Positions 40,090-64,000 of a stretch of DNA of 64,000 nucleotides are shown here, piece after piece. The stretch covers positions 124,001 to 188,000 of the forward strand of contig NZ_MWQN01000003.1 of assembly GCF_002024165.1 (NCBI RefSeq). Direction: 5' to 3'. Below the pieces are notes generated by a model that saw only the letters and a list, made by a program, of their open reading frames with translations, searched no databases and was not told the DNA's origin. The stretch is from Embleya scabrispora (GTDB lineage Bacteria; Actinomycetota; Actinomycetes; Streptomycetales; Streptomycetaceae). Position 1 is the first letter of the stretch; the number at the start of each line of letters is the position of its first letter. The position numbers and the translations under genes are program-made.

Positions 40090-40249
40090 CCACCGTCGGC
40101 CCGGGAAAGACCGGATATCCGAGGACGGGCCCATACCGGCGCGCGACACCGGATCCGGTCCGCGACGGCCTCCGACGTGTTGGTGCCTGCCGGGCGCCAT
40201 CCCTCTCGTCTCCCGTTCGTCGGGGCCGGCCGGCTGCCAGACTGGGGCG

Positions 40250-41602: not shown

Positions 41603-43396
41603 TCACCGAACGACCGCGTACGCCTGTTGCCCACGCGGACTCGCCGCCGCCAACACGCCGCCGTGCGAGTCCGGGCCCGTGGCACACACCTTGCCCAGGG
41701 TCATCGGCGCGACCGTCCGCACCTCGTGGCCGCGCCGGCGAAGCTCGGTCAGGGCGGCCGGATCGAACCCGTCCTGCTCCACGACCGCGGCCAGCGGCCG
41801 CGCCCGACGGGGCGTGAACGAGCTCGGAACGTGATCGGTGTGGAAGGTCGCCGCTTCCACCGCCTGCTGGGGGCTCATGCCGAAGTCGACGTGGTTGACG
41901 AAGAAGTTCAGGGTCCACTGGTCCTGTTGGTCGCCCCCGGGCGTGCCGAAGGCCAGGTAGGGCGCGCCGTCCCGGAGCGCCAAGGTCGGACTGAGCGTCG
42001 TACGGGGCCGTTTGCCGGGAGCGACGGAGTTGTTGTGCCCCTCGTCCAACCAGGCCATCTGGCCTCGGGTGCCCAGCGGGAATCCGAGACCGGGGACCAC
42101 CGGGGAGCTCTTGAGCCACCCGCCACTGGGGGTGGCGACCACCATGTTGCCGTCGCGATCGGTCGCGCTCACGCAGCACGTGTCGCCCTTCGCCGCCGTT
42201 TGCTGCAGGACGGTCGGGATGCCGTCGGCCAACTGCCGCAGCCAGTCCGGGTCGCCGGAGGAGGCGGACACGTCCAGTACCGGGGGAATCCACGGTTTCC
42301 GACCGTCGGGCGAGCCGGGGCGCAGGACATCGGAGGCCTCGGGTCCGATCAGGGTCCGGCGGGCCGCCGCGTAGACGGGGTCGAGGAGGCCGGCCAGCGG
42401 CACGTCGGCGTGCTCCGGGTCGCCGTACCACGCCTCCCGGTCCGCGAAGGCCAGCTTGGCGGACTCGATCACGGTGTGCACGTGGTCCGCGCTCCCGAAG
42501 CCCATCGCGTCGATGTCGAAGCCCTCCAGCAGGGCCAGTTGCTGGAGGAAGACCGGACCTTGGGACCAGGGGCCCGCCTTGTGCACGCTGTGACCGCGGT
42601 AGTCGAGGGCCACGGTGGCTTCGACGGGTACCCGCCAGCCGGCCAGGTCGTCACCGGTGAGCAGGCCGCCGTTGTGCCGGCCGGTGGAGTCGATCGGCTC
42701 CTCGGTCGCCATGAACCGGTCGACGGCCTCGGCGACGAATCCCTCGTAGAAGGCCGAGATCGCGGCGTCCGCCTGTGCCTCGCGCGTTCGTCCGGTCGCG
42801 GCCTCGGCGAGGATGCGGCGATACGTCCGGGCCAGCGCCGGATTGCGCATCCGGGCGCCGGGCGCGGGAGCTGCGCCGTGGTGCAGATAGGTACGGCCGG
42901 ACTCGGTCCACTCGTCGCGGAAGAGTGGCGCCATCACCTCGATCATCGCGGCGGTTTTGGGCAGCAGCGGATATCCGTCCTCGGCGTAGCCGATCGCGGG
43001 CTCCAGCACGTCCTGTACCGTCAGCCGGCCGAAGTCGCGCAGCAGGCGCATCCAGGCGCCGAAGGCCCCGGGTACGGTGGCCGCCAGCAGTCCGGAGCCG
43101 GGGATCACCGCCAGCCCGCGCCGGCGAAACGCCTCGGGCGTCGCCCGCCGCGGCATCGGACCCTGTCCGCAGACGACCCGGGTGGACCCGGTCGCCGCGT
43201 CGTAGACCATGATCGGGACGTCTCCGCCGGGGCCGTTGAGATGCGGCTCCACCACCTGGATGACCAGGGCCGCGGCGGTGGCGGCGTCGAACGCGTTCCC
43301 GCCGCGGTCGAACATCGCCACGCCCGCCGCCGAAGCGAGCCAGTGTGTGGAGGAGACCGCGCACGCGGTGCCGTGCAGTTCCGGACGATGCAGCAC
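41603..43396 (-). CDS. Gamma-glutamyltransferase-type hydrolase, LmbA-like
   Basis: 597 residues, Ntn-hydrolase fold as one precursor. The autoprocessing Thr is retained in AKGDTCCVSATDRDGNMVV (GGT equivalent TTHxSVxD), followed by SGGWLKSSPVVPGLGFPLG and TLSPTLALRDGAPYLAFGTP. No signal peptide, unlike true GGTs. In 4-alkyl-L-proline pathways LmbA-type enzymes cut a C-C bond to remove an oxalyl-type two-carbon piece from the ring-cleavage product. Five neighbours of that pathway lie upstream in the same operon, which is why I assign this role. GGAAGGACG about nine bases before GTG 43396 is the ribosome binding site. Confidence 0.82.
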   Translation of the reverse strand: MLHRPELHGTACAVSSTHWLASAAGVAMFDRGGNAFDAATAAALVIQVVEPHLNGPGGDVPIMVYDAATGSTRVVCGQGPMPRRATPEAFRRRGLAVIPGSGLLAATVPGAFGAWMRLLRDFGRLTVQDVLEPAIGYAEDGYPLLPKTAAMIEVMAPLFRDEWTESGRTYLHHGAAPAPGARMRNPALARTYRRILAEAATGRTREAQADAAISAFYEGFVAEAVDRFMATEEPIDSTGRHNGGLLTGDDLAGWRVPVEATVALDYRGHSVHKAGPWSQGPVFLQQLALLEGFDIDAMGFGSADHVHTVIESAKLAFADREAWYGDPEHADVPLAGLLDPVYAAARRTLIGPEASDVLRPGSPDGRKPWIPPVLDVSASSGDPDWLRQLADGIPTVLQQTAAKGDTCCVSATDRDGNMVVATPSGGWLKSSPVVPGLGFPLGTRGQMAWLDEGHNNSVAPGKRPRTTLSPTLALRDGAPYLAFGTPGGDQQDQWTLNFFVNHVDFGMSPQQAVEAATFHTDHVPSSFTPRRARPLAAVVEQDGFDPAALTELRRRGHEVRTVAPMTLGKVCATGPDSHGGVLAAASPRGQQAYAVVR

Positions 43397-43419
43397 GAGA
43401 CGTCCTTCCGAGGGGTCGG

Positions 43420-44298
43420 TCAAGGGGATTCGACGGGGACCGCGAGGTGTCCGGAGGCGACCGGTGTCACCCGGCCGGTCACGCTGCCTCGCACCACGAG
43501 GCCGTTCTCGACCGTCACCGTGCACTCGAGCAGTGCGGGGCGGCCCGCCTCGGCTCCCTGGCGGACCGTGTATCCGTGCTCGCCGTTCGTGGCGGGCAGT
43601 CGGCCGGCGACGATCAGCCACCCGCCCAGGGCCATGGCCACCGGTCCGCAGGCGGGGTCCTCGGGGATGCCGAAGCCTGGGGCGAACAGCCGGGCCCGGG
43701 CGAGGCGATCGGCCGGGTCCCAGGTGAACAGGCACAGAGCCGGCAGCGCGATGTCGCGCATGTGCGCGTAGTCGGGTCGGGCCCGGGCGATCGCGTCGGC
43801 GCGGACCGGGAGCACCGCGAAGCCCCCGCCGAAGCCCGCCAGTCGCGGCCCGCCGTCGCCGTCCGCATCGGCGAGGTCGGCCTCGGTCAGCTTCACCGCG
43901 TCGAGCAGTGGTCGCCGATCCAGCGGCTCGCCGCGCACCGGCCCGGTCGCGTGGAGGGTGGCGCGGTCGGCCCGCGCCGCGAGCACCTGGCGTCCGGTGC
44001 CACATTCCTGCACCAGGCGGCCGGGGGGAACGCGGCCCAACCGAGCCAGCGTGGCGGCGGTCCCCACGCCGGAATGCGCGCCGTGCGGTGATTCGGCGTC
44101 CGGGCCGAAGACGCGTACCCGGTAGGACGCGTGGGGCGAGGTCGCGGGGAGGACGAAGGCGGTTTCCGCGGCGCCGAGTTCCGCCGCGACGCACCGCATC
44201 ACGGCGGTCGAGAGTCCCGTCGCGTCGGGGACCACGGCCAGGGCGCTGCCCGTGAAGGGACGGTCGGTGAACATGTTGACGAGCTCGTAGCCGATCAT
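43420..44298 (-). CDS. PhzF-family isomerase, LmbX-like
   Basis: 292 residues of the PhzF/diaminopimelate-epimerase fold: MIGYELVNMFTDRPFTGSAL at the start, FGPDAESPHGAHSGVGTAAT around the active site, and FAPGFGIPEDPACGPVAMAL in the second half (the G-x-x-E-D-P-A-x-G motif). LmbX-type enzymes isomerise a double bond of the 4-alkylproline precursor after the LmbA step. Its ATG overlaps the stop of the F420 reductase gene (ATGA), and the LmbA-like gene follows after 23 bp. Confidence 0.83.
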   Translation of the reverse strand: MIGYELVNMFTDRPFTGSALAVVPDATGLSTAVMRCVAAELGAAETAFVLPATSPHASYRVRVFGPDAESPHGAHSGVGTAATLARLGRVPPGRLVQECGTGRQVLAARADRATLHATGPVRGEPLDRRPLLDAVKLTEADLADADGDGGPRLAGFGGGFAVLPVRADAIARARPDYAHMRDIALPALCLFTWDPADRLARARLFAPGFGIPEDPACGPVAMALGGWLIVAGRLPATNGEHGYTVRQGAEAGRPALLECTVTVENGLVVRGSVTGRVTPVASGHLAVPVESP

Positions 44299-45197
44299 CG
44301 TGTGCCCGTCGACGTGAAGAGCTTGCCGGCGATCCGCTCGACGACCTCGGGGCTGCCCTGGTAGGGGAAGTCGGCTCGGGGCCAATGGACGACCAGGTCG
44401 GTGAAGCCGATGTCCGCGAACAGCCCGCAGGCGTCCTCGTAGGCGTCCACCGCATCGATCACGCCGGTGATCATCGCGCCGGTGACGACCAGGCGGCGCA
44501 CTGTCGAGGGGTCGCGGCCGATGTCCGCGCACGCCGCGTCGAAGGCTTGCGTCTGTGTGCGAAGGTTCGCGATCGCCGATGCGTAGCCGCTCGGTTCACC
44601 CCAGCCGGGGTCGCCGGCCGTCACCCAGATGTCGGCGTGGCGGGCCGCCAGCCGGATGCCTCGGGGGCCGGTCGCGGCGATGGCCAGGGGCAGGCGTGGG
44701 CGCTGGACACAGCCCGGCACCATGAAGGCGCCGTGGGCTTCGAACCAGGCACCCCGGTGGTCGGTCACCCGTCGGCGCAGCAGCAGGTCGATCATTTCGA
44801 CGAACTCCGCGAAACGGTCGTGGCGTTCGGCCGGGGACGGGGGTGTGTGGCCCAGCACCCGGTCGTCGTGGCCGCCGGCGCCGGCGCCGAGTCCGCAGAT
44901 CAGCCGGCCGTCCGAGATGTCGTCGAGGGTCATCAATTCCTTGGCGAAGGTCACCGGGTGCCGGTAGGACGGGCCGGCGACCATCGTCCCGAGTCCGATC
45001 CGGGAGGTGGCCTCGGCCGCGGCCGCCAGCGTGGGGACGGCGCCGAACCAGGGCTTTTCGCGGAACCATCGCCACATCAGGTGGTCGTAGGTCCACGCGT
45101 GGTCGAAGCCGAGTTCCTCGGCGTGCGTCCACAGTCGGCGCGCGTGCGACCAGCGCTGCTCGGGCAGCAGGATGACCCCGTGCCGCATGGTGCTCAC
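44295..45197 (-). CDS. F420-dependent LLM-class reductase, LmbY-like
   Basis: 300 residues of the luciferase-like monooxygenase class: FDHAWTYDHLMWRWFREKPW, then TSRIGLGTMVAGPSYRHPVT, GRLICGLGAGAGGHD and PLAIAATGPRGIRLAARHAD. In the 4-alkylproline pathway LmbY-type enzymes use reduced F420 to reduce the side-chain/ring imine or double bonds. GTG 45197 overlaps the previous stop (GTGA) and is preferred to ATG 45188. The next gene overlaps it too, showing tight coupling. Confidence 0.84.
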   Translation of the reverse strand: MSTMRHGVILLPEQRWSHARRLWTHAEELGFDHAWTYDHLMWRWFREKPWFGAVPTLAAAAEATSRIGLGTMVAGPSYRHPVTFAKELMTLDDISDGRLICGLGAGAGGHDDRVLGHTPPSPAERHDRFAEFVEMIDLLLRRRVTDHRGAWFEAHGAFMVPGCVQRPRLPLAIAATGPRGIRLAARHADIWVTAGDPGWGEPSGYASAIANLRTQTQAFDAACADIGRDPSTVRRLVVTGAMITGVIDAVDAYEDACGLFADIGFTDLVVHWPRADFPYQGSPEVVERIAGKLFTSTGTR

Positions 45198-46159
45198 GAG
45201 GCGGTCATCTCCTTGGCCACCCGGGACGCGGAGAAGCCTGCGGCCAGACCGGCGACGCGAAAGAGCGAGGGGGTCAGATCCTCCTCGCACTCCACGATGT
45301 CGGGGTGTCGCATCTCCGCCGATGTCGCGTCTCGGCTCTCGGGCGATCCCGGGTACAGGCCGTTCGTGGCGAGGTCCATCACGATGGCCTTGTTGCGCCG
45401 CAGCAATTGCGCCAGGATCTCCTGCCGCGTGGTCGGCGCCCGCAGGGTCAGGAAGTAGCAGTCGAAGATCCCCTCCCACATGCGGGGCTGGTTGGCGTCG
45501 CGTTGCGCGACCGACTGCTGGAGCAGCGACCTGCCGCCCTCCACCAGTTTGGCCGCGACTCCCAGGTGGATGCGGTGGCTCAACTCGACCTGTCGGACCA
45601 GCCGTTCCCGCTCGGAGTCGACCACGGCCGGCAGTCTCCGGCCGCGGAACAGGCTTCGTACCGGCGGGTAGTCCGGCGCCCAGGTACCGCTGAAGGTGCT
45701 GTGCAGCCGATGCATGCTCGGTCGGATGTCCGCGTTGTAGATGGCGCTGTTGCACGAGCCCGTGTACAGCAGCATCCCGCAGTACGCCCGCACGTATTCC
45801 GTCACGGCGACCGAGGCGGCCTCGCGGTCCTTCGGGTTCGAGGACAGTCGCGACAGCTCGTCCGCCAGCAGGCGCCAGATCACGAAGGAGACGTGATGGC
45901 CGATGATCCAGCGAAACCAGAACAGTTGCCCCAGGCGGCTGTCGTCGACGGGTGGGGTGATCCCGAAGCCCTCCTTGGCCCGGGCCAGAAAGTCCAGGCA
46001 CGCGTCGTCGAGGTCGGCTCCGTCGCGACCGCCGCGGTCGGGCGCGGCGATGTTCGGCGCCGGCATCGTCAGCGGTTCCAGGCCGTAGGGGTAGTCGCCG
46101 AAGTCCCAGCCGTCGGTGCCGGGCAGGGAGAGTGCGGCGACGGCCGACGGGCGCCTCAT
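45194..46159 (-). CDS. Haem-dependent L-tyrosine 3-hydroxylase, LmbB2-like
   Basis: 321 residues, all-alpha in appearance, with FWFRWIIGHHVSFVIWRLLA, YVRAYCGMLLYTGSCNSAIY, ADIRPSMHRLHSTFSGTW and CYFLTLRAPTTRQEI. This layout matches LmbB2/SibU/HrmE-type tyrosine hydroxylases, which use haem and H2O2 to make L-DOPA, first step of the 4-alkylproline pathway. The paired histidines in IIGHH are candidates for haem ligation. Start ATG 46159 overlaps the stop of the LmbB1-like gene (ATGA). Assignment rests on family recall plus the complete pathway context. Confidence 0.82.
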   Translation of the reverse strand: MRRPSAVAALSLPGTDGWDFGDYPYGLEPLTMPAPNIAAPDRGGRDGADLDDACLDFLARAKEGFGITPPVDDSRLGQLFWFRWIIGHHVSFVIWRLLADELSRLSSNPKDREAASVAVTEYVRAYCGMLLYTGSCNSAIYNADIRPSMHRLHSTFSGTWAPDYPPVRSLFRGRRLPAVVDSERERLVRQVELSHRIHLGVAAKLVEGGRSLLQQSVAQRDANQPRMWEGIFDCYFLTLRAPTTRQEILAQLLRRNKAIVMDLATNGLYPGSPESRDATSAEMRHPDIVECEEDLTPSLFRVAGLAAGFSASRVAKEMTAS

Positions 46160-46635
46160 GCGTTTTCCCCCACTGCTCCCCCGATGCAGGTGAACTCGAA
46201 TTCCAGGCCGTTCACGTCGAGACAGTAGAAACTCTGGGTGCCCTGCGCGTCGGTCACGATCTCGGTGGGTTGCTCCGGGTCGACGAACGCGTAGCGGTGT
46301 GAACCGGAGAGTTCCAACCAACGGCTTCGCCAGGTACGCAGTTCGGCGGGCGTTTCGACGGCCAGGCACACGTGTTGGAAACGCGGTGCGTCCGGCGCGG
46401 CCCGGCGCTCGGCGGGAGTGCCGCGTTCGAAGAGATGGAAGTGCGCGGCCCCGACGGCCAGTTCGGCCATCCGCACGACGCCGGGCAGGCGGGATACGGT
46501 CAGGTCCGAGAATACGTCCGTCGCCCAGGTCAGCCGGCCGCCGAAGAAGTCCTCGTACCATGAAATCGAGTTGTCGAGATTGTCCGTCTGCACCGCGATG
46601 TGGTGCAGGACGGGCACCGATTCGAGATCGGGCAT
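46156..46635 (-). CDS. L-DOPA 2,3-dioxygenase, LmbB1-like VOC protein
   Basis: 159 residues of the VOC fold, the class used by LmbB1/SibV for extradiol cleavage of L-DOPA at the 2,3 bond. Metal-ligand candidates are His in PVLHHIAVQTDNLDN, His in PRFQHVCLAVETP and Glu in NGLEFEFTCIGG. Ring opening lets the chain cyclise to a pyrroline ring, giving the proline skeleton. GGAGGGG upstream supports ATG 46635. Stop/start overlap with the hydroxylase gene indicates the two steps are made together. Confidence 0.82.
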   Translation of the reverse strand: MPDLESVPVLHHIAVQTDNLDNSISWYEDFFGGRLTWATDVFSDLTVSRLPGVVRMAELAVGAAHFHLFERGTPAERRAAPDAPRFQHVCLAVETPAELRTWRSRWLELSGSHRYAFVDPEQPTEIVTDAQGTQSFYCLDVNGLEFEFTCIGGAVGENA

Positions 46636-46694
46636 ACGAATCCCCTCCGGTGGCCGGCGGCCCGCGTCGGCCCGGTTCCGACATCCTGCGTGGC

Positions 46695-47693
46695 TCAGAG
46701 CCTTTCGAGTTCGAAGATGACCTCGCCGACGGCGATGTCGATCGAATTTTTACTCCTGAGCCGCCAACCGCCTTCCTCGAAAACGGATTCCCAGTCGCGC
46801 ACGGTCGGAATGAAGGTGCCCATCATGTCGTGCGCGACCTCGAATCCCAGCGCGAAGATCGGCAGATCACGGTCGGCGACTCCCTCGCTGCGGGTGGCGT
46901 CACCCAGCAGGAATCTGCGCGCCCGCGGGAACAGGGTGCGCAGCCGGCGAAGGTTCTCGATGCACCGTTGCCGGGGCCAGAAGTCGTGCCCCATCATGAA
47001 ACAGGTCAGGAGTTCGACCTCTTCGAACGCCGGAACCGGGGCCATCGTCAGCACGTCGGCCTGCACGAACGTCATCCGGTCGGCAAGGCCGGCCGCGGCC
47101 GCCGCGGCGGTTGCCATCCGTACGGCCGGCTGGGCGATGTCGATGCCCACGGCCCGGGTACCCGGATGGCGGCCGAGGAGTTGCATGAGTCGCTCGCCGC
47201 TGCCGCAGCCCAGGTCGGCGACGACGTGGAAGTCGAAGTCCAGTCCCTGCACCGTCCGCCAGAACCAGGGGTCGTAGCAGAACTCGCTGATCTCCCGGCA
47301 CGCGAAGGCGATGGCGGCGCTGTCGCGCGGGCAGAAATTCCCTACCCGGTTCTCGGTACGCACGACCTCGGGCGCCCGCCGGAACAGGTCGGCACTTCCC
47401 CTGGTGAGCCAGTGAAAGAACGATTTGTTTCGGTATGCCTCGGAGAAGTGGACGCCCGGTAATATCTTGAACTCTTCGCGCTCGACGATCTCGACCGCCG
47501 ACAGTGCCCGAAAGAGGCCGAGAACGGAAACGGTGTCGAGTCCCCGTTCGGCCGCGAAACTCTGCACGTCGAGCGTTCCCTGCGTGTGTAACTCGTCGAA
47601 CATACCGAGTTCCCAGGCGGCACCGATGGCCGAAGCCGCCACCGCAGAATTATATATGTGGGTTATCGCTTTTTCGCTGTCGCCCGGCGTCAC
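46695..47693 (-). CDS. SAM-dependent C-methyltransferase, LmbW-like
   Basis: About 332 residues. An N-terminal helical domain (ITHIYNSAVAASAIGAAWEL, GLFRALSAVEIVEREEF) precedes the SAM fold: VVADLGCGSGERLMQLLGRH, GTRAVGIDIAQPAVRMATAA. In lincomycin and hormaomycin pathways LmbW-type enzymes methylate the side chain, giving a three-carbon rather than two-carbon chain. It heads the leftward operon. GTG 47693 is chosen because GAGAGGGG lies six bases upstream; GTG 47699 is also in frame. A role as O-methyltransferase cannot be excluded on sequence alone. Confidence 0.7.
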   Translation of the reverse strand: MTPGDSEKAITHIYNSAVAASAIGAAWELGMFDELHTQGTLDVQSFAAERGLDTVSVLGLFRALSAVEIVEREEFKILPGVHFSEAYRNKSFFHWLTRGSADLFRRAPEVVRTENRVGNFCPRDSAAIAFACREISEFCYDPWFWRTVQGLDFDFHVVADLGCGSGERLMQLLGRHPGTRAVGIDIAQPAVRMATAAAAAAGLADRMTFVQADVLTMAPVPAFEEVELLTCFMMGHDFWPRQRCIENLRRLRTLFPRARRFLLGDATRSEGVADRDLPIFALGFEVAHDMMGTFIPTVRDWESVFEEGGWRLRSKNSIDIAVGEVIFELERL

Positions 47694-47989
47694 ATCCACC
47701 CCTCTCACGCAAAATGGTGAGAAACAAAAATTTACGACAGGCGACATTTAATATCCATGATCACGATCGGATAACGCAAGTGACGTGCGTCACATCGACG
47801 CCGTGTTGACAGGGCGACCGCACCGACGGCAGGTTCACCATGACCACACCTGGACGACCAGGGCCGCCGACCACTCGGCACGCCGGGACGGCGGCTTGGA
47901 TTCATGTCACCCGCCTGCCTCGCGGCCTCCCTGGATAGGGCTTGGCGCGACCGCCGGACCGGAATGCGGCAGAGTGACTGGAGTTCACG
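47694..47989. promoter_or_regulatory. AT-rich divergent promoter region of the peptide cluster
   Basis: About 300 bp between the leftward 4-alkylproline operon and the rightward NRPS operon, markedly AT-rich near 47700-47780. It contains the near-palindrome GTGACGTGCGTCAC (47780-47793), a -35-like TTGACA near 47806 and several A/T tracts. Both operons must start here, so it is the likely control point of the whole cluster. Confidence 0.6.
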
Positions 47990-49096
47990 TTGTCCGATTC
48001 GTCAGCAGACATACCTTTATTAGGAAATTCTTCCGTCTCGTCGTATACCGAGTGGGATCCACTCGAAGAAGTAATTGTCGGGATAGTCGACGACGCCACG
48101 TTTCCGCCGTGGCACGCATCCCTGGAACCGGTCATCCCGGCGCACCAGCACGAGACCTTCCGCCGCCGCGGCGGGCAACCGTTTCCCGCGGAGCTGATCG
48201 CCGCGGCCCGCAGGGAACTCGACGAGTTCGTGCACATCCTCGAAGCCGAGGGGGTGACGGTCCGACGCCCCGAGCCGGTCGCGCAGCGCACGCCCTACGC
48301 CACGCGCGACTGGACCAGCACCGGTCTGTACGCGGCCATGCCGCGGGACTGTCTCCTGGTGGTGGGCGAGGACGTCATCGAGTGCCCGATGGCCTGGCGC
48401 TCCCGGTACTACGAAACCCTCGCCTACCGGCCGCTCCTGAAGGAGTACTTCCGGTCCGGCGCCCGGTGGAGCGCCGGACCCAAGCCGGAACTTCCCGACG
48501 AACTATACGACTTGACCTGGACCGAGCCGGCCGAGGGGATGCCGACCCGGCTGATCGTGACCGAGTTCGAGCCGACCTTCGACGCGGCCGACTTCCTGCG
48601 GCTCGGGCGCGACATCGTCGCGCAGAAGAGCAACGTCACGAACGAGTTCGGCATCGACTGGCTGCGCCGCCATCTCGGTGATCGATACCGGATCCACGTC
48701 CTCGAGTTCGACGACACGCACCCCATGCACATCGACGCCACGCTGGCCCCGCTGGCTCCCGGGAAGCTGCTCGTGCACCCCGAGCGGGTGTCGAAGGTGC
48801 CCGCGATCTTCAAGGGCTGGGACGTGATGCGCGCCCCCCGGCCGGTGATTCCCGACAGTCACCCGCTCTACCTGACCAGCAAGTGGATCAACATGAACGT
48901 CCTGATGCTGGACGAGAACCGCGTCGTGGTCGAACGCGACGACGAGCCGATGATCTCCGGGATGAAGGAGTGGGGCTTCACCCCCATTCCGTGCAGCTTC
49001 CGCAACTTCAACAGTTTCGGTGGCTCCTTCCACTGCGCCACCCTCGACGTGCGACGCAGCGGCGGACTCGACTCCTATCTCGACCACCCCGGCTGA
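47990..49096 (+). CDS. L-arginine:amine amidinotransferase (GATM-like)
   Basis: 368 residues, strikingly like vertebrate [81 protein letters not shown] (Asp), [16 protein letters not shown] (His) and [16 protein letters not shown] (catalytic Cys). It should move the amidino group of arginine to an amine, making a guanidino amino acid. It begins the rightward operon; the NRPS follows after 50 bp. TTG 47990 has GGAG upstream. Codons 10 and 11 are both TTA, very rare here, so translation may depend on the bldA tRNA. Confidence 0.9.
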
Positions 49097-49146
49097 CCCA
49101 CCGCAGGGAGCACCTCGCCAAGCGTCGTCTCGATCTGGAGTGTGAG

Positions 49147-55100: not shown

Positions 55101-55566
55101 TCCGGACCCGGTCGTGCTGCGCCGCTTCGTGGCCGAGTCGGTGCCGGACTTCCTGGTGCCCACCGCCGTGCTGATCCTGGCCGACCTGCCGCTGACCGTG
55201 AGCGGCAAGGTCCATCGCCGGGCGCTGCCCGCCCCGGACTTCGCGCAGTTCGCCTCGACCCGGGCACCGGCCACGCCGGAAGAGGAGGCCCTGTGCGCGC
55301 TGTTCGCGGACGTACTGCGACTGGAGCGGGTCGGACCGGACGACTCCTTCTTCGACTTCGGCGGTCATTCGCTCCTGGCCACCCGACTGACGAGCCGGAT
55401 CAGGACCGTGCTGGGCATCGACGTCGAGGTGGGCGCGGTGTTCGAGGCGCCGACGCCGGCGGCGCTGGCCGCCCGGATCAAGGGCACGAAACGTTCGCGC
55501 CGGCCGGCGTTGCGGCGGATGCCCCGCCCGGGGCCCGCGGCCGAGGAACGGAGCGACGGCTCGTGA
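49147..55566 (+). CDS. NRPS, two modules: C-A-T-C-A-T
   Basis: 2139 residues. Domains: C1 ~1-440 (HHIVNDG at ~139), A1 ~450-950 (core [11 protein letters not shown] ~617, YGPTETT, YRTGDLV), T1 with [10 protein letters not shown] (Ser ~1000), C2 ~1045-1490 (HHIAGDA, Ala replacing the usual Gly), A2 ~1500-2020 (core ~1676, YGPTETH), T2 with [10 protein letters not shown] (~2072). No epimerisation domain. C1 at the N-terminus resembles EntF/DhbF-type C domains that take an acyl group from a separate carrier, fitting the free A-T protein at 61370. Specificity residues by eye: A1 D-G-L-H-V-A-G-V-D, A2 D-V-A-F-I-Q-L-L-V; neither matches a code I can name. Confidence 0.95.
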
Positions 55567-55600
55567 TCGACTCGGACCGCACCCACCTGGGGTACCGCTG

Positions 55601-58600
55601 ATGATTCCGCTGTCGTACGCGCAACACCGGATCTGGTTCCTCAACAAGCTGGACGACGGGACGGGCTACCGCATCCCGTTGGTGTACCGACTCGTCGGGG
55701 AGCCGGACGTGGCGGCGCTGCGGGCCGCGTTCACCGATGTCCTGGCCAGACACGAGAGCCTGCGCACGGTCTTTCCCGAGTCCGACGGCGCCCCCCGCCA
55801 AGTGGTCCTGGAGGACTCCGCGGCCTGGCCGGTCCTGGCGGTCGAACGCATTCGGCCGTCGGAACTGCCCGAGGTCCTTCGAGCCGCGGGAGCGCACGTC
55901 TTCGACCTCACCACCGAAGCGCCCGTGCGGTTCGCCCTGTTCTCGCTCGGACCGGACGAGCACGTCCTGCTGATCCTGCTGCACCACATAGCGGCGGACG
56001 GCTGGTCGCGGGAACCACTCCTGCGCGACCTGGCGACCGCCTATGGGGCGCGGTGCGCGGGGCGGGCGCCGGGCTGGGATCCGCTGCCGGTCCAGTACAT
56101 CGACTACACCCTGTGGCAGCGTGAACTGCTCGGCGACGAGGCTGATCCGAACAGTCTGATCAGCGAGCAACTGGCCTACTGGCGCGACGCCTTGGCCGGC
56201 ATCCCGGAAAATCTGTCGCTGCCCGCGGACCGGCCTCGGCCGGCCGCGGCCTCCCATCGCGGCGAGACGATCCCGATGCTGATCGCACCGCGCACGCACC
56301 TGGCCCTGATCGAGCTGGCCAGACAGGAGCGGGTCAGTCTCTTCATGGTGTTGCAGGCCGGGCTCGCCGCCCTGTTGACCCGGCTGGGCGCCGGCACCGA
56401 CATCCCCATCGGCTCGGCCGTCGCCGGCCGGTCCGACGAGGCGATGGACGATCTGGTGGGGATGTGCGTCAACACGCTGGTGCTGCGCACCGACACCGCC
56501 GGTAATCCGTCGTTCCGGCAACTCCTGGCCCGGGTACGGGAGACGGACCTGGCGGCGTACGCACGTCAGGACGTGCCGTTCGAACGGCTCGTCGACGTGC
56601 TCGCCCCCTCCCGCTCGGCGGCGTGGAACCCGCTGTTCCAGGTCATGCTCGTCCTGGAGGACCGCACCCCGAACCTCCCGTACCTCCCGGGCCTGCCGGC
56701 CACCGAGGAACCGATCGACAACCCGGACTCGAAAGTCGACCTGTCGCTCCACCTGCGGGAGCGGCAGACCGACGACGGCAGCCCCGACGGCCTGGAAGGC
56801 GGCCTGGAGTTCGCTCGCGACCTGTTCGACTCGATCACCGCCGAACACATGGTCGAACGGCTGGAGTCGGTGCTCGCGGCCATGGCCGCGGACCCGGACC
56901 GCTCCATCGGCGACGTGGAGATTCTCCGGCCCGGTGAGCGCGGCGCCCTCCTCGGCGCGTGCCGCCCGACCCCGGCTCGAACCCGGGAGCAGTTGCTCCC
57001 CGGGCTCTTCGAGGCGCAGGTGGCGCGTACTCCGGAGGCGACGGCACTGATCGCCGGGCAGGCACGGACGACCTACCGGGCGCTGAACGCGCGGGCCGAC
57101 CGGCTGGCCCGATGGCTGACCGGCCGGGGTATCGGCGCCGAGGACATCGTGGCGCTGCTGCTGCCCCGCTCCGTCGACGCGGTCGTCGCCATGCTCGGCG
57201 TGCTCAAGGCCGGCGCCGCGTACCTGCCGGTGGACCCGGATTACCCGGCCGCCCGGATCGCCTTCATGCTCACGGACTCGGCGCCCACGCTGCTCATCAC
57301 CACGGAGAGCGCGGCCGGTCCGGCCTGGGCGGGCCCCGTCCCCGTTCTGGACATCGCCGCCTGGCAGCACGAGGCGGCGGATATGCCGCCCGAAGCGGGA
57401 CCGGCCCGCAGCGCGCGAGCCGGTGTGCCGCACGAGGCGAACGCCGCCTATGTGATCTACACCTCCGGTTCCACCGGCCGCCCCAAGGGCGTGGTGGTGG
57501 AACACCGTTCCCTGGCCGCCTATGTGGAACAGGCACGGGCGGCGTATGCGAGTGCGGCCGGGTCGAGCCTGGTCCATACCTCGCTGTCCTTCGACCTGAC
57601 GGTGACCGCCCTGTACACCCCGCTGGTGAGCGGCGGGCACGTGCGGTTGGGCGAGTTGGCCGGGCCCCACACCGGCCCGCTCCGCCCCTCCCTCCTGGAC
57701 GTCACGCCGAGCCATCTCGACCTGATGGCGGCGATGCCGGTGGATCCGTCGCCGACCCGATGCCTGCTGATCGGCGGTGAGGCGTTGCGCGGGCAGTCGC
57801 TGGCCGGGTGGCGGGAGCAACACCCGGACGTCGTGGTCCACAACCTCTACGGCCCCACCGAGGCGACCGTGGACTGTGCCCGGTTCCGGCTCGACCCGGG
57901 CGATCCCACACCGCCCGGACCGGTCCCCATCGGCCGCCCCCACGACGGCCTGGGCATGTACGTCCTGGACGAGCGGCTGCGCCCGGTGCCGAGCGGCGTC
58001 GCGGGCGAACTGTACGTGGCGGGTCCGGCCCTCGCGCGAGGCTATGCGGGCCGGTTCGCGCTGACGGCCGAGCGTTTCGTGGCGGATCCGTTCGGCCGGG
58101 CCGGTAGCCGGATGTATCGCACCGGTGATCTGGTCCGCCTGCGCTCCGACGGCGAACTCGAATACGTCGGGCGGGCGGACCACCAGATCAAGTTGCGCGG
58201 CCACCGCATCGAGTTGGGCGAAGTGGAGGCCGCGCTGCTGGCCCTGCCCGGGATCTCCCGGTGCGCGGTCGTGGTCCACGAGCGTTCTTCCGACGACAGA
58301 CGCCTGATCGGGTATGTCGTCCCGACCGGTCCGGTCGCGAGCGTGAGCCCGGCAGCCGTCCGGGCGGCCCTCGCCGACGCACTGCCCGCGCCGATGGTCC
58401 CCTCGGCCGTCGTGGTCCTTGCCCAACTGCCGGTCACACCACACGGCAAGCTCGACCGCGCCGCTCTTCCGCCGCCGGAGACCGACGCACCGGTGGGTGA
58501 CCGGCGGGTGCCGCGCACCCCGGCGGAGGTGTCGCTGTGCCAGGTGTTCGCCGAGGTGATCGGCGTCGACACGGTCGGCATCGACGACGGATTCTTCGAG

Positions 58601-59482
58601 CTGGGCGGGCACTCGCTGCTCATGCCGCGGCTGCTCACCCGGGCCAGGGAAGCCCTGGGGCTGGAACTGACCCTGAAGCAGTTGTTCGTGCGACCCACCG
58701 TGGCGCAGCTGCTCCGGGACCAGCCCGCGACGGCGGACCTGCTCGGTCCGCTGATCCGCCTACGCGGCGGAACGGGTCGGCCGCTGTGGTGCATCCATCC
58801 GGGGAGTGGCCTGGGCTGGAGTTACGCGGGCCTGCTGCCGTACATTCCGGCCCGACACCCGGTGTACGCCCTCCAGGCGCGCGGCCTCGACGGCTCCACC
58901 GCCCTGGCCGGCAGTTTCCCCGAGCTCGTCGAGGACTACTGCGCGCGGATCGTCGACATTCAACCGAACGGGCCCTATCTGCTTGCCGGTTGGTCCTTCG
59001 GCGGAGCCGCGGCCCATGCCGTCGCGGTCCGACTGCGCGCGTCGGGGCACGCGGTCGCTCTGCTCGCCGCCATCGACGCCTGGCCGGCGGGCGCCCATAC
59101 CGATCGCGACACCGAAGAGCCCTCCGACGTCCGGCTGGTGGCCTTCGACGGCGGGGAGGCGATGGCGGCCCTGGACGAGGAGTCGGTGGCCGCGCTGCTG
59201 CGGGCCACCGGCAACAACATCCGCCTCCTGCGGGATCCGGGCATCGTCCCGGAGTTCTTCGACGGCTCGCTGCTGCTCTTCGAGGCCGCGCCCGGCGGCC
59301 GGGAAACGCGGGCCGGGCAACGGTGGCGGTCCTGCGTCGGCGGGGACATCGCGGTGGTGCCGGTGGACAGCGAGCACCTGCGGATGATGCGCCCCGCGGC
59401 GCTGCGCGTGATCGGACCGGTCCTCGCCCGGGCGTTGCGATCGACGACGCCCCTGTCGCCGGCGATCAAGGAGCGGATCTGA
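55601..59482 (+). CDS. NRPS terminal module: C-A-T-TE
   Basis: 1293 residues. C3 ~1-440 ([18 protein letters not shown] at ~128), A3 ~450-960 ([11 protein letters not shown] ~620, YGPTEAT, YRTGDLV), T3 with [13 protein letters not shown] (Ser ~1003), then a thioesterase with GWSFGG (Ser ~1132) and the His in VDSEHLRMM. The A3 substrate pocket by eye is D-L-T-D-L-G-L-V-D; the D-L-T opening recalls Asx-type pockets but the rest does not. The TE ends the line by hydrolysis or cyclisation, so no reductive release. It follows the first NRPS after 34 bp in one operon. Confidence 0.95.
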
Positions 59483-59483
59483 C

Positions 59484-61343
59484 ATGTGCGGCATCACCGG
59501 GTCCATGGTCCTGCGCAACGCCCGACCGACGACGGCCGAGGTACTGGAGCGGATGAGCGATACGTTGACGCACCGCGGCCCGGACGCGGCGGGCACCCTG
59601 ATCCAGGACGGCGTGGCGCTGGCCTGCCGCCGGCTGAGTCTGGTCGACCTCGCCGGCGGCGGGCAGCCGATGTCCAACGAGGACGGCAGCGTCACGATGG
59701 TGTGCAACGGCGAGATCTTCAACCACGTCGAGCTGCGCGCCCTGTTGCTCGCCCGGGGCCACCGGTTCGGGTCGTCCTGCGACGTCGAGGTGATCCTGCA
59801 CCTCTACGAGGACGAGGGGCCCGAGCTGTTGGCGCGACTCAACGGCCAGTTCGCGTTCGCGATCCACGACCGGCGCAGGCGACAGCTGTTCCTCGCGCGC
59901 GACCACGCCGGGATCGCTCCTCTGTACTACACGGACACCGGCGAGCACTTCGTCTTCGGATCGGAGATCAAGTCGATCCTGGAACACCCCGGTGTACCGC
60001 GCGACGTGGACCTCACCGGTCTGGACCAGGTCCTCACGTTCCCCGGGCTGGTGAGTCCGCGCACCATGTTCCGCGGCATCGAGAGCGTGCGCAACGGCCA
60101 CTACCTGATCGTGCGGGACGGTGTCGTCACCGACCGGTGCTACTGGGCCCTGGACTACCCCCGCGACGAGGTCGCGCACCGGCCCGACGAGTTCTACCCG
60201 GAACACCTGCGTGAACTGCTCACCCGGGCCGTTCGGCTCCGGATGCGAGCCGACGTCGAGGTCGGTTTCTATCTCAGCGGCGGCCTCGACTCCTCGCTGA
60301 TCGGCGCGCTGGCGTCGCAATCGGGACCCCCCGCCCACTCCTTCTCCATCACCTTCCCCGACGCGGCCATCGACGAGTCCGGATATCAGCGCCTGATGGC
60401 GACCAAGGTGGGGTCCGTGCACCACGAGGCGGTGTTCACGGAGCAGGACACCGTCGCCGAACTCCAGCGCATGGTGCGCCATGCCGAGTGCCCGGTGAAG
60501 GAGACCTACAACACCTGCTCGCTGGTCCTGTCGGCGCTCGCGCGAGAACACGGCGTCAAGGCGATCCTGACCGGCGAGGGGGCCGACGAACTCTTCGGCG
60601 GGTATCCCGGGTACCGGTTCGACGCGGGCGGGCGCGGCCCGGTGGTGTCGGGCGATCCGCTGGAGGACGCCTTCGAGGACGACCTTCGGGCCCGGCTGTG
60701 GGGCGACCCGGACCTCTTCTACGAGCGCCGGTACCACGCGTGGCGGGACGCGAAGGTCGAGCTCTACTCCGCGCAGGCCCGGGCCGCCTTCGAGGAGTTC
60801 GACTGTCTGCACCACCCGGTCGTCGACCACGAGCGCCTGGTGGGCAGGCCGCGGCTCAGTCAGCGCTCCTATCTGGACTTCACCCTGCGACTGTCGGACC
60901 ACCTGTTGACCGACCACGGGGACCGGATGGCCCTGGCCAATTCCGTGGAGGCCCGCTACCCGTTCCTCGATCGCGCCGTGCTCGATTTCGCCACGCGGAT
61001 TCCCAACCGGCTCAAGGTGGGCCCGCGGGGCGAGAAGCTCGTGCTGAAACAGGCCGCGGAGGGACTGGTCCCGCCGGAGATCATCCGCCGGGAGAAGTAC
61101 GGGTTCCGCGCGCCCGCGAGCCCTCGGCTGCTCCGGCGCAACGTCGAATGGGTCGACGACCTGCTGTCCCCGGCGCGCATCGCCCGTCAGGGCTACTTCG
61201 ATCCGGCGGTCGTGGAGCGGTTGCGCTCGCGCAGCCTGGACGCGGCCTTCGACCTGCATCCGCACCTGGACGACGATCTGTTGCTGGTCGTCCTGACGTT
61301 CGGAATTCTGCTGGACACCTTCAACCTTCCCGGTCACGTGTGA
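59484..61343 (+). CDS. Class B asparagine synthetase-like amidotransferase
   Basis: 619 residues, usual for AsnB. It begins MCGITG so Cys2 is the glutaminase nucleophile after Met removal. N-terminal Ntn domain: DTLTHRGPDAAG, CRRLSLVDLAGGGQPMSNED, FNHVELRALLLARGH. The synthetase domain holds the PP-loop YLSGGLDSSLIGALASQS and ILTGEGADELFGGYPGYRF. It should use glutamine and ATP to aminate a carboxylate. In an NRPS cluster it probably modifies a building block or the peptide rather than making free asparagine. ATG 59484 follows the NRPS stop by one base. Confidence 0.9.
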   Translation: MCGITGSMVLRNARPTTAEVLERMSDTLTHRGPDAAGTLIQDGVALACRRLSLVDLAGGGQPMSNEDGSVTMVCNGEIFNHVELRALLLARGHRFGSSCDVEVILHLYEDEGPELLARLNGQFAFAIHDRRRRQLFLARDHAGIAPLYYTDTGEHFVFGSEIKSILEHPGVPRDVDLTGLDQVLTFPGLVSPRTMFRGIESVRNGHYLIVRDGVVTDRCYWALDYPRDEVAHRPDEFYPEHLRELLTRAVRLRMRADVEVGFYLSGGLDSSLIGALASQSGPPAHSFSITFPDAAIDESGYQRLMATKVGSVHHEAVFTEQDTVAELQRMVRHAECPVKETYNTCSLVLSALAREHGVKAILTGEGADELFGGYPGYRFDAGGRGPVVSGDPLEDAFEDDLRARLWGDPDLFYERRYHAWRDAKVELYSAQARAAFEEFDCLHHPVVDHERLVGRPRLSQRSYLDFTLRLSDHLLTDHGDRMALANSVEARYPFLDRAVLDFATRIPNRLKVGPRGEKLVLKQAAEGLVPPEIIRREKYGFRAPASPRLLRRNVEWVDDLLSPARIARQGYFDPAVVERLRSRSLDAAFDLHPHLDDDLLLVVLTFGILLDTFNLPGHV

Positions 61344-61369
61344 ACGCGGGTCGAGCAAAGGAAACCGCA

Positions 61370-63202
61370 ATGGCGTTCGAACCGATCCAGTCGCTTGTCG
61401 CCCGCGCGATCGACCGCTTCCCCGACCGAGTCGCCGTACAGACCGCGCACGGCTCGCTGCGCTATCGCGAACTGGACCAACGCGTCGACGCCGTCGCGGC
61501 CGAGCTGTATCGGTGCGGAGCACGCCGCGCCTCCGTCGTCGCGGTCCTCGCCGGCGACCGGGCCGAGCTGACCGCGGCCCTGCTCGCCGTCCTGCGGCTG
61601 GGCGGTGTGGTGGTCCCCCTCGACGTGGGCACCCGGCCGGATCGGCTGGGCTGGATGCTGCGCGAGGCGGACCCCGATCTCCTGGTCGTCGGCGCCGACG
61701 ACGGCGACCTCGCGAAGGACGTGCGCGATATGTGCGACCGGGCCGGCCTGGTCGATCTCGGCACGGTCAAGGACCGGCCCGGGAACGACTACCCGCCCCA
61801 CGTGCCGGCGCCGGACGATCCCTGCTACCTGTTCTTCACCTCCGGCTCCACCGGCCGGCCCAAGGGGATCCTCGGCCGGCTGAGCGCGGTGGACCACTAC
61901 ATCCGCTGGGAGGCGGAGCTGCTCGGCGCCGGTCCCCGATGGCGGGTGGGCCAGCTGATCTCGCCCGCGTTCGACGCCGTGCTGCGCGACCTGCTCCTGC
62001 CGTTGAGCGTGGGCGCGACGGTATGCGTGCCGGCCGAGGACGTCCGGCTCGACCCGGTCGCCCTGTGCCGGTGGCTGGACCGGGAACGGATCGATCTGAT
62101 CCACTGCGTGCCCTCGGTCTTTCGCGCCCTGGCGGGCGCGATCGACACGGTCCGGCCGGGGTTCGAGGCACTGAAGTGCGTGGCCCTGTCCGGTGAGCGC
62201 GTGCTGCCCGCCGACGCCGCCGGCTGGTTCGACCGCTTCGGCGAGCGGATCCGGCTGCTGAACCTCTACGGGCCCTCGGAAACCACCATGACGAAGACCT
62301 TCCACTTCGTCACCGCCGCCGACGCGCGGAGCAGGTCCGTCCCGATCGGACGCCCGATGCCCGACACCGTCGTCCTGCTGCTCGACGAACGCGGCCGGGA
62401 GGTACCACCGGGGCGGGTCGGCGAGGTTCACCTGCGTACGGCCTACCGCAGCCTCGGGTACCACCGCAGGCCGCAGGAGACCGAACGCGCCTTCATCGCC
62501 GACCCCACCCGGCCCGGCGGCGGCGAAGTCGTCTACCGGACCGGGGACTTCGCGCGCCTGCTGCCCGACGGCACGCTCGACTTCCTCGGCCGCCGGGACC
62601 GACAGGTCAAGGTCGGCGGCGTGCGGGTGGAGCTGGACGGGGTTGAGCAGCTCCTGCGCGAGGACCCGTCGGTCGCCGAGGCGGCCGTCGTGTCGGTCGA
62701 GCCGGACGACGCCCCGCCGTACCTGTGCGCGTTCGTCGAGACCGGCACGGGGACGGACTCCGAGGAACTTCGCACTCGACTGGGCGAGCATCTGCGCGCA
62801 CACCTGCCGGACGGCGCGATCCCGGCGGTGATCGTGCCGCTGGAGCTCATTCCGCGCACCATCAGCGGCAAGATCGACCGCAAGGCGCTCACCGTGCCCG
62901 TGCGGTCCCCCGCCCGACCCGACGCGGACGCCGTCGCACCGCGCACAGCCACCGAACGCACGATCGCCGGGATCTGGGCGCGTACGCTGCCGGCCCCGGT
63001 CGACGACGTGCGCACCCGGTTCTTCGACGTGGGCACCTCGCTGGCCGTGATCTCGGTGCTGGCGCGGCTGACGGAGGAGTTCGGAGTGTCCGTCCCGCTG
63101 GCGGACTTCCTGGCGAACCAGACGATCGAGGGCCTGTCGAACCTGGTCGAGCGCTTGCTGCTCGCCGACGACGACGCCGACGACGACCTCTTCGGGAGCT
63201 GA
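61370..63202 (+). CDS. Free-standing adenylation-carrier (A-T) didomain
   Basis: 610 residues. The A domain has [16 protein letters not shown] (~157), LNLYGPSETTMTKTF, VYRTGDFARLL and TISGKIDRKAL; the carrier follows with FFDVGTSLAVISVLARL, the phosphopantetheine Ser being in GTS (~554). The acidic tail ends DDDADDDLFGS. It can charge its own carrier and pass the acyl group to a C domain or a tailoring enzyme; the EntF-like first C domain is the obvious acceptor. Pocket by eye: D-A-R-H-A-S-L-M-T, not a known code. AAAGGA upstream supports ATG 61370. Confidence 0.9.
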   Translation: MAFEPIQSLVARAIDRFPDRVAVQTAHGSLRYRELDQRVDAVAAELYRCGARRASVVAVLAGDRAELTAALLAVLRLGGVVVPLDVGTRPDRLGWMLREADPDLLVVGADDGDLAKDVRDMCDRAGLVDLGTVKDRPGNDYPPHVPAPDDPCYLFFTSGSTGRPKGILGRLSAVDHYIRWEAELLGAGPRWRVGQLISPAFDAVLRDLLLPLSVGATVCVPAEDVRLDPVALCRWLDRERIDLIHCVPSVFRALAGAIDTVRPGFEALKCVALSGERVLPADAAGWFDRFGERIRLLNLYGPSETTMTKTFHFVTAADARSRSVPIGRPMPDTVVLLLDERGREVPPGRVGEVHLRTAYRSLGYHRRPQETERAFIADPTRPGGGEVVYRTGDFARLLPDGTLDFLGRRDRQVKVGGVRVELDGVEQLLREDPSVAEAAVVSVEPDDAPPYLCAFVETGTGTDSEELRTRLGEHLRAHLPDGAIPAVIVPLELIPRTISGKIDRKALTVPVRSPARPDADAVAPRTATERTIAGIWARTLPAPVDDVRTRFFDVGTSLAVISVLARLTEEFGVSVPLADFLANQTIEGLSNLVERLLLADDDADDDLFGS

Positions 63203-63203
63203 C

Positions 63204-64000
63204 ATGACCGACCAGCCGCTGGACGCCGAGCGGATCGAGTCCGTCGAACGCCGGGTGCGGACGGCCGTGTTGGACCAGGACGGCGTCCTCGACTGCGCCG
63301 TCGTGTTCAACGAGGCCGACCCCGCGGCGGCCGGCGCCCGCGCCTGTGTCCGGTGCGGGATCAGCGCCGCGTACCCGGGACTGCGCTTCGATTCGGACGG
63401 GGTCTGTTCGCTGTGCGCGCGCTACGCCGCCCATCGATCGGCGATGCACGCCTACTTCCGTGACCCGCGGGAACTGGCGCCGCGGCTGCGCGAGGCCGCG
63501 CGAGGGCGCGGATCGCACTACGACTGCCTGCTGCTGTTCAGTGGCGGCAAGGACAGCACGTATGTGCTCTACCAGCTCGTGGAACTGGGTCTGCGCGTAA
63601 TGACCTTCACCTTCGACAACGGGTTCATCTCGCGGACCGCGCTGCGCAACGTCGAGAGCGTCACCGCCGAACTGGGCATCGAACACGTCACCGCCACCCA
63701 CGCCGACCAGAAGCGGATCTTCCTGAACTCGCTCCAGGAGCACAAGAGCGTGTGCAACGGGTGCTTCCGCTCCCTCCTGGACCTGAGCACCGAACTCGCG
63801 CACCGGCGCGACATCCCCACGGTGGTCACCGGGCTCTCCCGCGGCCAGATCATGGACGAGCGGCTGTCCTGGTTCCACGAGCAGGGCATCTTCGACGTGG
63901 CCGAGATCGAGGAGAAGCTGCGGCTGGGCCGGGAGGTGTACCACCGGGCCGCGGGCACGGTCGACGCCGCCGCGGTGAACGCGGTCCAGGTCGTCGACTA
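63204..64000 (+). CDS. PP-loop ATP pyrophosphatase, N-acetyl-sugar-amidotransferase-like (partial)
   Basis: The first ~265 residues are present; the gene runs off the window. It has an N-terminal segment with a CVRCG...CSLC zinc-finger-like pair, then the PP-loop LLLFSGGKDSTYVLYQLVEL, and a later CNGCFRSLLDL. This is the WbpG/ExsB-like group that adenylates a carbonyl or carboxyl and adds nitrogen or sulfur, usually with a glutamine amidotransferase partner. In sugar pathways it aminates a sugar; in an NRPS operon it may make an amide, amidine or thioamide. It directly follows the A-T gene. Confidence 0.8.
   Translation, partial: MTDQPLDAERIESVERRVRTAVLDQDGVLDCAVVFNEADPAAAGARACVRCGISAAYPGLRFDSDGVCSLCARYAAHRSAMHAYFRDPRELAPRLREAARGRGSHYDCLLLFSGGKDSTYVLYQLVELGLRVMTFTFDNGFISRTALRNVESVTAELGIEHVTATHADQKRIFLNSLQEHKSVCNGCFRSLLDLSTELAHRRDIPTVVTGLSRGQIMDERLSWFHEQGIFDVAEIEEKLRLGREVYHRAAGTVDAAAVNAVQVVD

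Follow-up and report, generated by a model that had tools for sequence, protein, structure and literature searches.

The DNA analysed here, called the window, is a stretch of 64,000 nucleotides from the soil actinomycete Embleya scabrispora (contig NZ_MWQN01000003.1, positions 124,001 to 188,000), and its right-hand part carries a nonribosomal peptide synthetase (NRPS) gene cluster made of two oppositely oriented operons (Table 1). The leftward operon holds genes for a gamma-glutamyltranspeptidase (GGT) homologue, a PhzF-like protein, an F420-dependent luciferase-like protein, an LmbB2-like protein, a VOC-fold protein and a methyltransferase, with intergenic spacings of -4 to 59 bases. The rightward operon holds genes for an amidinotransferase, two NRPSs with condensation (C), adenylation (A), thiolation (T) and thioesterase (TE) domains in the orders C-A-T-C-A-T (NRPS1) and C-A-T-TE (NRPS2), an asparagine synthetase, an A-T didomain and a PP-loop protein. 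Both gene sets were confirmed with a gene caller, the list of open reading frames, Pfam and NCBIfam, and a scan for promoters and terminators between the two operons gave no candidate. The first-pass annotation of the window had described these rightward genes, the amidinotransferase as GATM-like, and a complete leftward operon for 4-alkyl-L-proline (APD) biosynthesis. This observation was confirmed, and its interpretation as a whole was partly supported: the genes lie where it placed them, and it missed the last 3.6 kb of the cluster, the recurrence in seven genomes, the long and short forms described below, and what kind of protein the PP-loop gene encodes. The cluster overruns the window, and in the window's own genome its acyl-CoA dehydrogenase gene stops at 67607. 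We consider it rather probable from the sequence that this orphan NRPS cluster makes a small basic peptide, in which a guanidino residue would be followed by an alkylproline and a third residue (X3), with an amidine-type cap unit added in the long form.

According to the available part of PMC4780272, the APD pathway of lincomycin (lmb) uses the enzyme types W, B1, B2, Y, X and A. The same six types are predicted in the leftward operon, and a propylproline-type unit is therefore expected; because W, X and Y are all present, the chain should have three carbons, as in 4-propyl-L-proline or a less reduced relative. The LmbB2-like protein matched no Pfam family at E ≤ 0.001. Its best solved matches are heme-dependent L-tyrosine hydroxylases (7kqr and 8r2s), which places it within the LmbB2 family, the placement on which the first-pass reading had depended. 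The Asp405-Thr406 autoproteolysis pair of the GGT homologue is kept in six of the six family members aligned, and the available part of PMC5519988 describes the role of LmbA-like enzymes and the place of this Asp-Thr pair. The LmbB1, LmbW, LmbX and LmbY relatives, which lie in one operon, were recognised by fold family, spacing and recurrence near B2; the VOC gene was likewise assigned by its Glyoxalase fold and genomic company. These predictions support a complete six-gene 4-alkyl-L-proline set.

The amidinotransferase matched no Pfam family, and no NCBIfam family above cut-off. Among solved structures it is closest to HsvA, SxtG and human AGAT, and an alignment to these three shows the catalytic Asp, His and Cys conserved. 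With the residue numbers of AGAT given in the available part of PMC3684758, Met302 is kept and Asn300 is replaced by His. The presence of such an enzyme alone is common, as matches of any strength were found in 130 of the 391 genomes of the order. Relatives with at least 74% identity occurred in seven of those, namely the window genome, G234 and G226, which have APD genes, and G308, G159, G181 and G282, which have no B2 match; the latter four show that the close subfamily also occurs outside alkylproline clusters. An attempt to read the acceptor from these other contexts was set aside: the relatives in the four genomes (74-77% identity) have desaturase, carbamoyltransferase, NRPS or housekeeping genes as neighbours and pointed to no clear substrate.

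The two NRPSs together have three extension modules and a terminal TE, as the earlier annotation had proposed, and Pfam gave no reductase domain. To read the A-domain codes, 74 A-domain segments, which came from 38 of the 59 stretches searched, were aligned with a GrsA segment as the ruler. The A2 code is DVWC[GS]GLLVK in six of the six genomes read, with one position varying (E. scabrispora DSM 41855 was not read separately). In a FastTree phylogeny, A2 groups with the same-position A domains of the Streptomyces catenulae, S. antibioticus and S. sp. S465 APD clusters (support 0.886), which have no amidinotransferase, and one Actinoplanes domain is the next to join this group (support 0.995). 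The motif YGP[TS]ETH is common to A2, proline-like and presumed pyrrolobenzodiazepine (PBD) A domains, and the corresponding motifs are YGPTETT in A1, YGPTEAT in A3 and YGPSETT in A4. The available parts of PMC3874040 and PMC5730197 report that modular APD-activating domains fall among modular proline domains. Because its code is nearly invariant and it groups with alkylproline-type domains, A2 was assigned as the putative alkylproline-loading domain. Code identity was not leaned on, and the presumed PBD code VMY[TA]VMLA agrees only in part with the SibD code VMFYTALV (available part of PMC5730197). The A1 code is D[GA]LH[ST]G[GA]V[DE]K in all six genomes, the A3 codes begin with DLTD, DLTK, DLSE, DLSQ or DQNC, and the A4 code is DARHASLMTK in the three long forms read. 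Because the amidinotransferase, A1 and A2 are constant while A3 varies, module 1 (A1) is by parsimony the likeliest place of the guanidino residue.

A search of 391 genomes of the order with the LmbB2-type protein (E ≤ 0.001) matched 33, the window's own genome included and several weakly, and a search with an alignment of 15 such proteins found relatives at 57 loci of named genomes. Neighbours were counted within 10 kb of B2 by tblastn (E ≤ 1e-6), and since some loci are cut by contig ends these counts are lower bounds. B1 was near B2 in at least 55 of the 57 loci and all six APD genes in at least five. Only in these five was an amidinotransferase near B2: E. scabrispora DSM 41855, S. chumphonensis KK1-2, S. 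sp. 13-12-16, NRRL WC-3742 and Nocardiopsis ansamitocini. G234 also has the full set, and with the window seven genomes have the core of six APD genes, amidinotransferase, C-A-T-C-A-T and C-A-T-TE. The gene order is the same in E. scabrispora DSM 41855, NRRL WC-3742, S. chumphonensis, Nocardiopsis and G234 (the B1 genes of E. scabrispora DSM 41855 and Nocardiopsis were not called by the gene caller and were recovered by tblastn), and because it recurs in other genera the gene set is not a matter of chance.

Two forms of the cluster were found. In the long form (the window, E. scabrispora DSM 41855, S. sp. 13-12-16, where these genes are spread over two contigs, and NRRL WC-3742), NRPS2 is followed by genes for AsnB, the A-T didomain, the PP-loop protein, a racemase-family protein and an acyl-CoA dehydrogenase. 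In the short form (S. chumphonensis, G234 and N. ansamitocini), none of these five genes follows NRPS2, and a gene of 68-69 residues, MbtH-like by eye, lies between the amidinotransferase and NRPS1. The PP-loop protein gave a strong match in the same four long-form genomes among the 11 searched; the total of 10 of 11 includes weak hits, most of which fall on its C/E-type part. Of four genomes of the genus, two have the PP-loop domain, the window's among them. Some loci had further features of their own. NRRL WC-3742 has two extra genes between the exporter and the GGT homologue, a cupin/JmjC-type gene and a short-chain dehydrogenase gene (L170:5357-7038, minus strand), which suggest further tailoring there. 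The NRPS2 of Nocardiopsis (L174:14175-18110, minus strand) has a different TE active-site motif, GHSMGA, and another A3 code, and its release or third residue may differ. In G116, G103 and G297 of the same family (L051, L053 and L054 with L094, L095 and L071), B2, B1 and GGT genes lie about 40 kb from an amidinotransferase with 63-65% identity, possibly in one large cluster.

The last gene to enter the window was described before as a PP-loop enzyme; the PP-loop domain is there, and the whole is a composite protein running to 65663, with a WbuX-type domain, an A-subdomain remnant and a C/E-type domain (E, epimerisation). The match to the N-acetyl sugar amidotransferase WbuX (TIGR03573, NCBIfam 2.5e-30) spans residues 46-344, and the PP-loop domain carries SGGKDS and Cys pairs. 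For residues 387-428, hhalign gave a match to the C-terminal A subdomain of the adjacent A-T didomain (E 5e-4, probability 30%), although this piece alone gave no Pfam AMP-binding_C match. Residues 449-619 match E and C domains and look by eye like a decayed epimerase-like domain, with HE for the expected HH. The protein has no Pfam AMP-binding match, so that its A core is lost, whereas the core is present in two further relatives, G574 and G555, found among 396 genomes of the phylum (E ≤ 1e-25); a second search from one of them among 198 genomes (1e-40) returned the same two only. The G574 protein is A-[WbuX]-T (961 amino acids), its insert being WbuX-type by alignment only, and the G555 protein is A-[WbuX]-T-C-A-T-TE (2658 amino acids, WbuX 8.4e-24 by NCBIfam). 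Both have a complete A domain. In the alignment with these two complete examples, the WbuX-type insertion lies between a8 and a9. The window protein was read as an interrupted A domain because of this alignment, to which the hhalign match adds weak support only. According to the available parts of PMC11355689 and PMC8097286, methyltransferase, oxidase and ketoreductase insertions in A domains are commonly at a8-a9. The window shares this insertion place with the known interrupted A domains, and differs in that its insert is a WbuX-type PP-loop amidotransferase and its A core is lost.

WbuX/PseA-type proteins are linked with acetamidino sugars. The codes of the two interrupted A domains, read by eye, are DLTKIGEVAK (G574) and DLTKVGEVGK (G555), and both resemble the code for asparagine. 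On asparagine, WbuX-type chemistry would give a side-chain amidine, and the insertions in G574 and G555 suggest amide-to-amidine chemistry on the assembly line. The G555 stretch also has two acyl-CoA dehydrogenase-like genes, one of them confirmed by Pfam, and the window cluster has one. Because the A core is lost in Embleya and a separate A-T didomain with a different code adjoins, it is a guess that the asparagine idea also holds in Embleya; the genes for AsnB and for the Asp/Glu-racemase-family protein help it. We hold only tentatively, as a doubtful but possible extension, that A-embedded WbuX-type amidotransferases convert the side chain of carrier-bound asparagine to an amidine during NRPS assembly, and that the split version in Embleya would cap a guanidino-alkylproline peptide, making an undescribed natural product class with both guanidine and amidine. 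A literature search gave no paper joining PP-loop, nonribosomal peptide and amidine. The word "amidotransferase" does not occur in PMC11253843 (on A domains) or in the available parts of PMC11355689 and PMC8097286 (the latter on NRPS recombination), and the novelty of the WbuX insertion is not proved.

The limits of the cluster were taken from its relatives. A 27.5 kb block of the window genome (40173-67672) matches E. scabrispora DSM 41855 with 97.9% identity over 27,385 aligned bases, and the two LmbB2-like proteins are 96% identical. The flanks of E. scabrispora DSM 41855 that were compared are about 5.4 kb before the match and 10.4 kb after it; against them, 67601-99000 gave no DNA match and 20001-40300 matched in 40173-40300 (128 bases) only. 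In NRRL WC-3742 the conserved gene order likewise stops after the acyl-CoA dehydrogenase. On these grounds, an MMPL gene on the left and a FecCD/SIP uptake operon on the right were left out of the cluster. Genes for FecCD permeases, a SIP reductase, a periplasmic binding protein and ABC transporters (68669-78071, L009:9669-19071), a set for siderophore uptake and export, adjoin the cluster and are not conserved with it. An upstream major facilitator superfamily (MFS) exporter is also a cluster member, with homologues at the same place in E. scabrispora DSM 41855 and NRRL WC-3742. Its frame is split in the window, which may be a true break or a sequencing error.

Table 1. Features of the proposed alkylproline-guanidino NRPS cluster in window coordinates, and two NRPSs from other actinobacteria. 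Functions are predicted; aa, amino acids.
Feature	Position	Strand	Evidence or remark
MFS exporter, frame split	40358..41550 (approximate)	+	397-aa one-frame homologue in E. scabrispora DSM 41855
LmbA-like gamma-glutamyltranspeptidase homologue, predicted C-C bond cleavage, 597 aa from GTG	41603..43396	-	Pfam G_glu_transpept 6e-114 (572-aa form)
LmbX-like isomerase, PhzF fold	43420..44298	-	Pfam, NCBIfam
LmbY-like F420-dependent reductase (LLM class)	44295..45197	-	Pfam, NCBIfam
LmbB2-like heme-dependent L-tyrosine 3-hydroxylase	45194..46159	-	PDB 7kqr 6e-75, 8r2s 5e-74
LmbB1-like extradiol dioxygenase, VOC fold	46156..46635	-	Pfam Glyoxalase; relative near B2 in at least 55/57 loci
LmbW-like C-methyltransferase	46695..47747	-	Pfam, NCBIfam, recurrence near B2
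GATM-type L-arginine:amine amidinotransferase	47990..49096	+	HsvA 2e-128, SxtG 2e-124, human AGAT 1e-116
NRPS1, C-A1-T-C-A2-T	49147..55566	+	Codes A1 DGLHSGGVDK, A2 DVWCGGLLVK (assigned to alkylproline)
NRPS2, C-A3-T-TE	55601..59482	+	Code A3 DLTDLGLVDK
Glutamine-hydrolysing asparagine synthetase homologue (AsnB), long form only	59484..61343	+	Pfam, NCBIfam
Stand-alone A-T didomain (A4), long form only	61370..63202	+	Code DARHASLMTK
WbuX-type PP-loop amidotransferase in A-subdomain remnant, then E-like domain	63204..65663 (window part to 64000)	+	
Asp/Glu/hydantoin racemase-family gene	65701-66456 (beyond window)		Pfam
Acyl-CoA dehydrogenase	66453-67607 (beyond window)		Pfam
Two unrelated actinobacterial NRPSs with WbuX-type insertion	L185:11604-14489; L183:10731-18707	-; +	

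From the gene content, order, conservation and domain make-up, which were directly observed, we infer the substrates, residue order, amidine and release as follows. Tyrosine would be converted to a 4-alkyl-L-proline by 3-hydroxylation (B2), ring cleavage (B1), C-methylation (W), C-C cleavage (GGT homologue), isomerisation (X) and F420-dependent reduction (Y), and the product would be 4-propyl-L-proline or a less reduced relative. The amidinotransferase would take the amidino group from arginine and place it on an amine; the resulting guanidino amino acid would most likely be the substrate of A1. The alkylproline would enter through A2 and a third residue, which differs between lineages, through A3, and the TE would release the chain. 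In the long form, AsnB, the A-T didomain, the WbuX-type protein, the racemase and the acyl-CoA dehydrogenase may make an extra carrier-bound unit, probably derived from Asp or Asn and bearing an amidine, which would be handed to the first C domain.

Several points weigh against this scheme. The acceptor amine of the predicted amidinotransferase is not readable from the sequence. For A2, position 278 can be read in two ways (Cys from the alignment, Phe with a nearby Pro as the anchor), and the deeper grouping with proline-like and presumed PBD A domains has a FastTree support of only 0.484. The nearest solved structures were uninformative on specificity, as linear gramicidin synthetase is the best match of A2 and equally of A1, A3 and A4, and a long loop after position 278 was dropped as a mark of A2, since the loops have 21 residues in A1, 28 in A2, 23 in A3 and 27 in A4. 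We know of no code like that of A4. In the short form the starter C domain is intact and has no separate carrier feeding it, which leaves N-capping unexplained. The WbuX score of the window protein, 106.1 bits, is under the NCBIfam cut-off of 203.2. The split frame of the exporter also belongs here.

The starter C domain bears on where the guanidino group goes. Its HHxxxDG motif is intact in the five genomes in which this part is readable, and the domain needs a donor, which would suit a product of the amidinotransferase (guanidinoacetate or another guanidino acid) capping the peptide through this domain, with A1 loading an ordinary amino acid; the kept Met302 of the glycine-using human AGAT points the same way. 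We consider this unlikely, because the short form showed neither a ligase nor a carrier for such an acid and the A-T didomain is the natural donor in the long form. Quite unlikely, in our view, is that the PP-loop domain inserts sulfur to give a thioamide instead of nitrogen to give an amidine or amide. The best Pfam PP-loop match is QueC in the window and ThiI in the G555 relative, and the NCBIfam LarE and ThiI models also match weakly. However, of the NCBIfam models WbuX fits the PP-loop part best in both proteins scanned and is matched along almost all of its length, the cluster genes scanned include no sulfur-carrier or desulfurase gene, and the glutamine-hydrolysing AsnB adjoins. The broken exporter frame and the HE of the epimerase-like domain would fit a decaying, non-functional copy, but the biosynthetic frames are open, the proteins are 95.6-99% identical to those of E. 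scabrispora DSM 41855, and the C, T and TE motifs are kept (the second C domain has HHIAGDA, with Ala for Gly), so that decay seems very improbable. A siderophore cluster formed together with the adjoining FecCD/SIP uptake operon and ABC exporters (68669-78071) was set aside as hardly credible, as this operon is not conserved with the cluster: identity to E. scabrispora DSM 41855 ends at about 67672 and the next 31 kb are unmatched against the 10.4 kb there, the uptake proteins of this genome are never the best match of a cluster-flanking gene in NRRL WC-3742, E. scabrispora DSM 41855 gives only a 31% match to an ABC ATPase, and no classical chelating group is predicted.

The guanidino-alkylproline reading was then compared with known systems, and the earlier statement that marks of lincosamide, PBD and hormaomycin clusters are absent was borne out among the cluster genes scanned. 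In contrast to lincomycin, no amino-sugar gene was seen among these genes, the alkylproline would be loaded by the modular A2 and not by a stand-alone LmbC type, and a peptide would be released by the TE. PBD clusters have a two-module NRPS, reductive release and anthranilate supply. The window resembles those for anthramycin, sibiromycin and tomaymycin in its APD genes and putative modular alkylproline A domain, and presumed PBD loci in the ETH motif, but it has three extension modules, a TE, no reductase domain, and an amidinotransferase. The hormaomycin (hrm) cluster has a long NRPS with nitrocyclopropyl and chloropyrrole genes and, to our knowledge, no amidinotransferase. The window is like it in that its predicted NRPS peptide contains an APD residue, and Pfam gave no nitrocyclopropyl or chloropyrrole gene among the cluster genes scanned. 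An LmbX homologue is present in the window, while the available part of PMC4780272 describes the hormaomycin producer as having none. The closest B2 relatives outside the family (53-59%) are in a sister group of APD clusters, found in S. catenulae, S. huiliensis, S. sp. S465 and S. antibioticus (L105, L107, L108 and L109), which have NRPSs, B2, B1 and other APD relatives, and in three of the four, where read, the corresponding A2 domain. Neither an amidinotransferase nor X was found in the stretches read of these four (for S. huiliensis, a contig of just 9.5 kb). HsvA, SxtG and human AGAT share family and catalytic residues with the window enzyme, which stands instead in an NRPS context with an alkylproline.

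No paper among those listed in the searches of open-access literature was seen to join an alkylproline with a guanidino NRPS, so that the product is undescribed, as first claimed, within the limits of those lists. The parts of the pathway are of known kinds, and their combination is new. The available part of PMC4780272 gives three families with tyrosine-derived alkylproline, namely lincosamides, PBDs and hormaomycin. The union of alkylproline and guanidine chemistry in Embleya, Streptomyces and Nocardiopsis would be a fourth APD family and a clear target for product discovery, for which named strains can be grown. The natural split into long and short forms is a built-in experiment on the role of the five extra genes. 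For a specialist, the built-in amidotransferase would be the most surprising part, and if it is true that such domains make amidines on the carrier, NRPS prediction and engineering would gain a tailoring domain of a new type.

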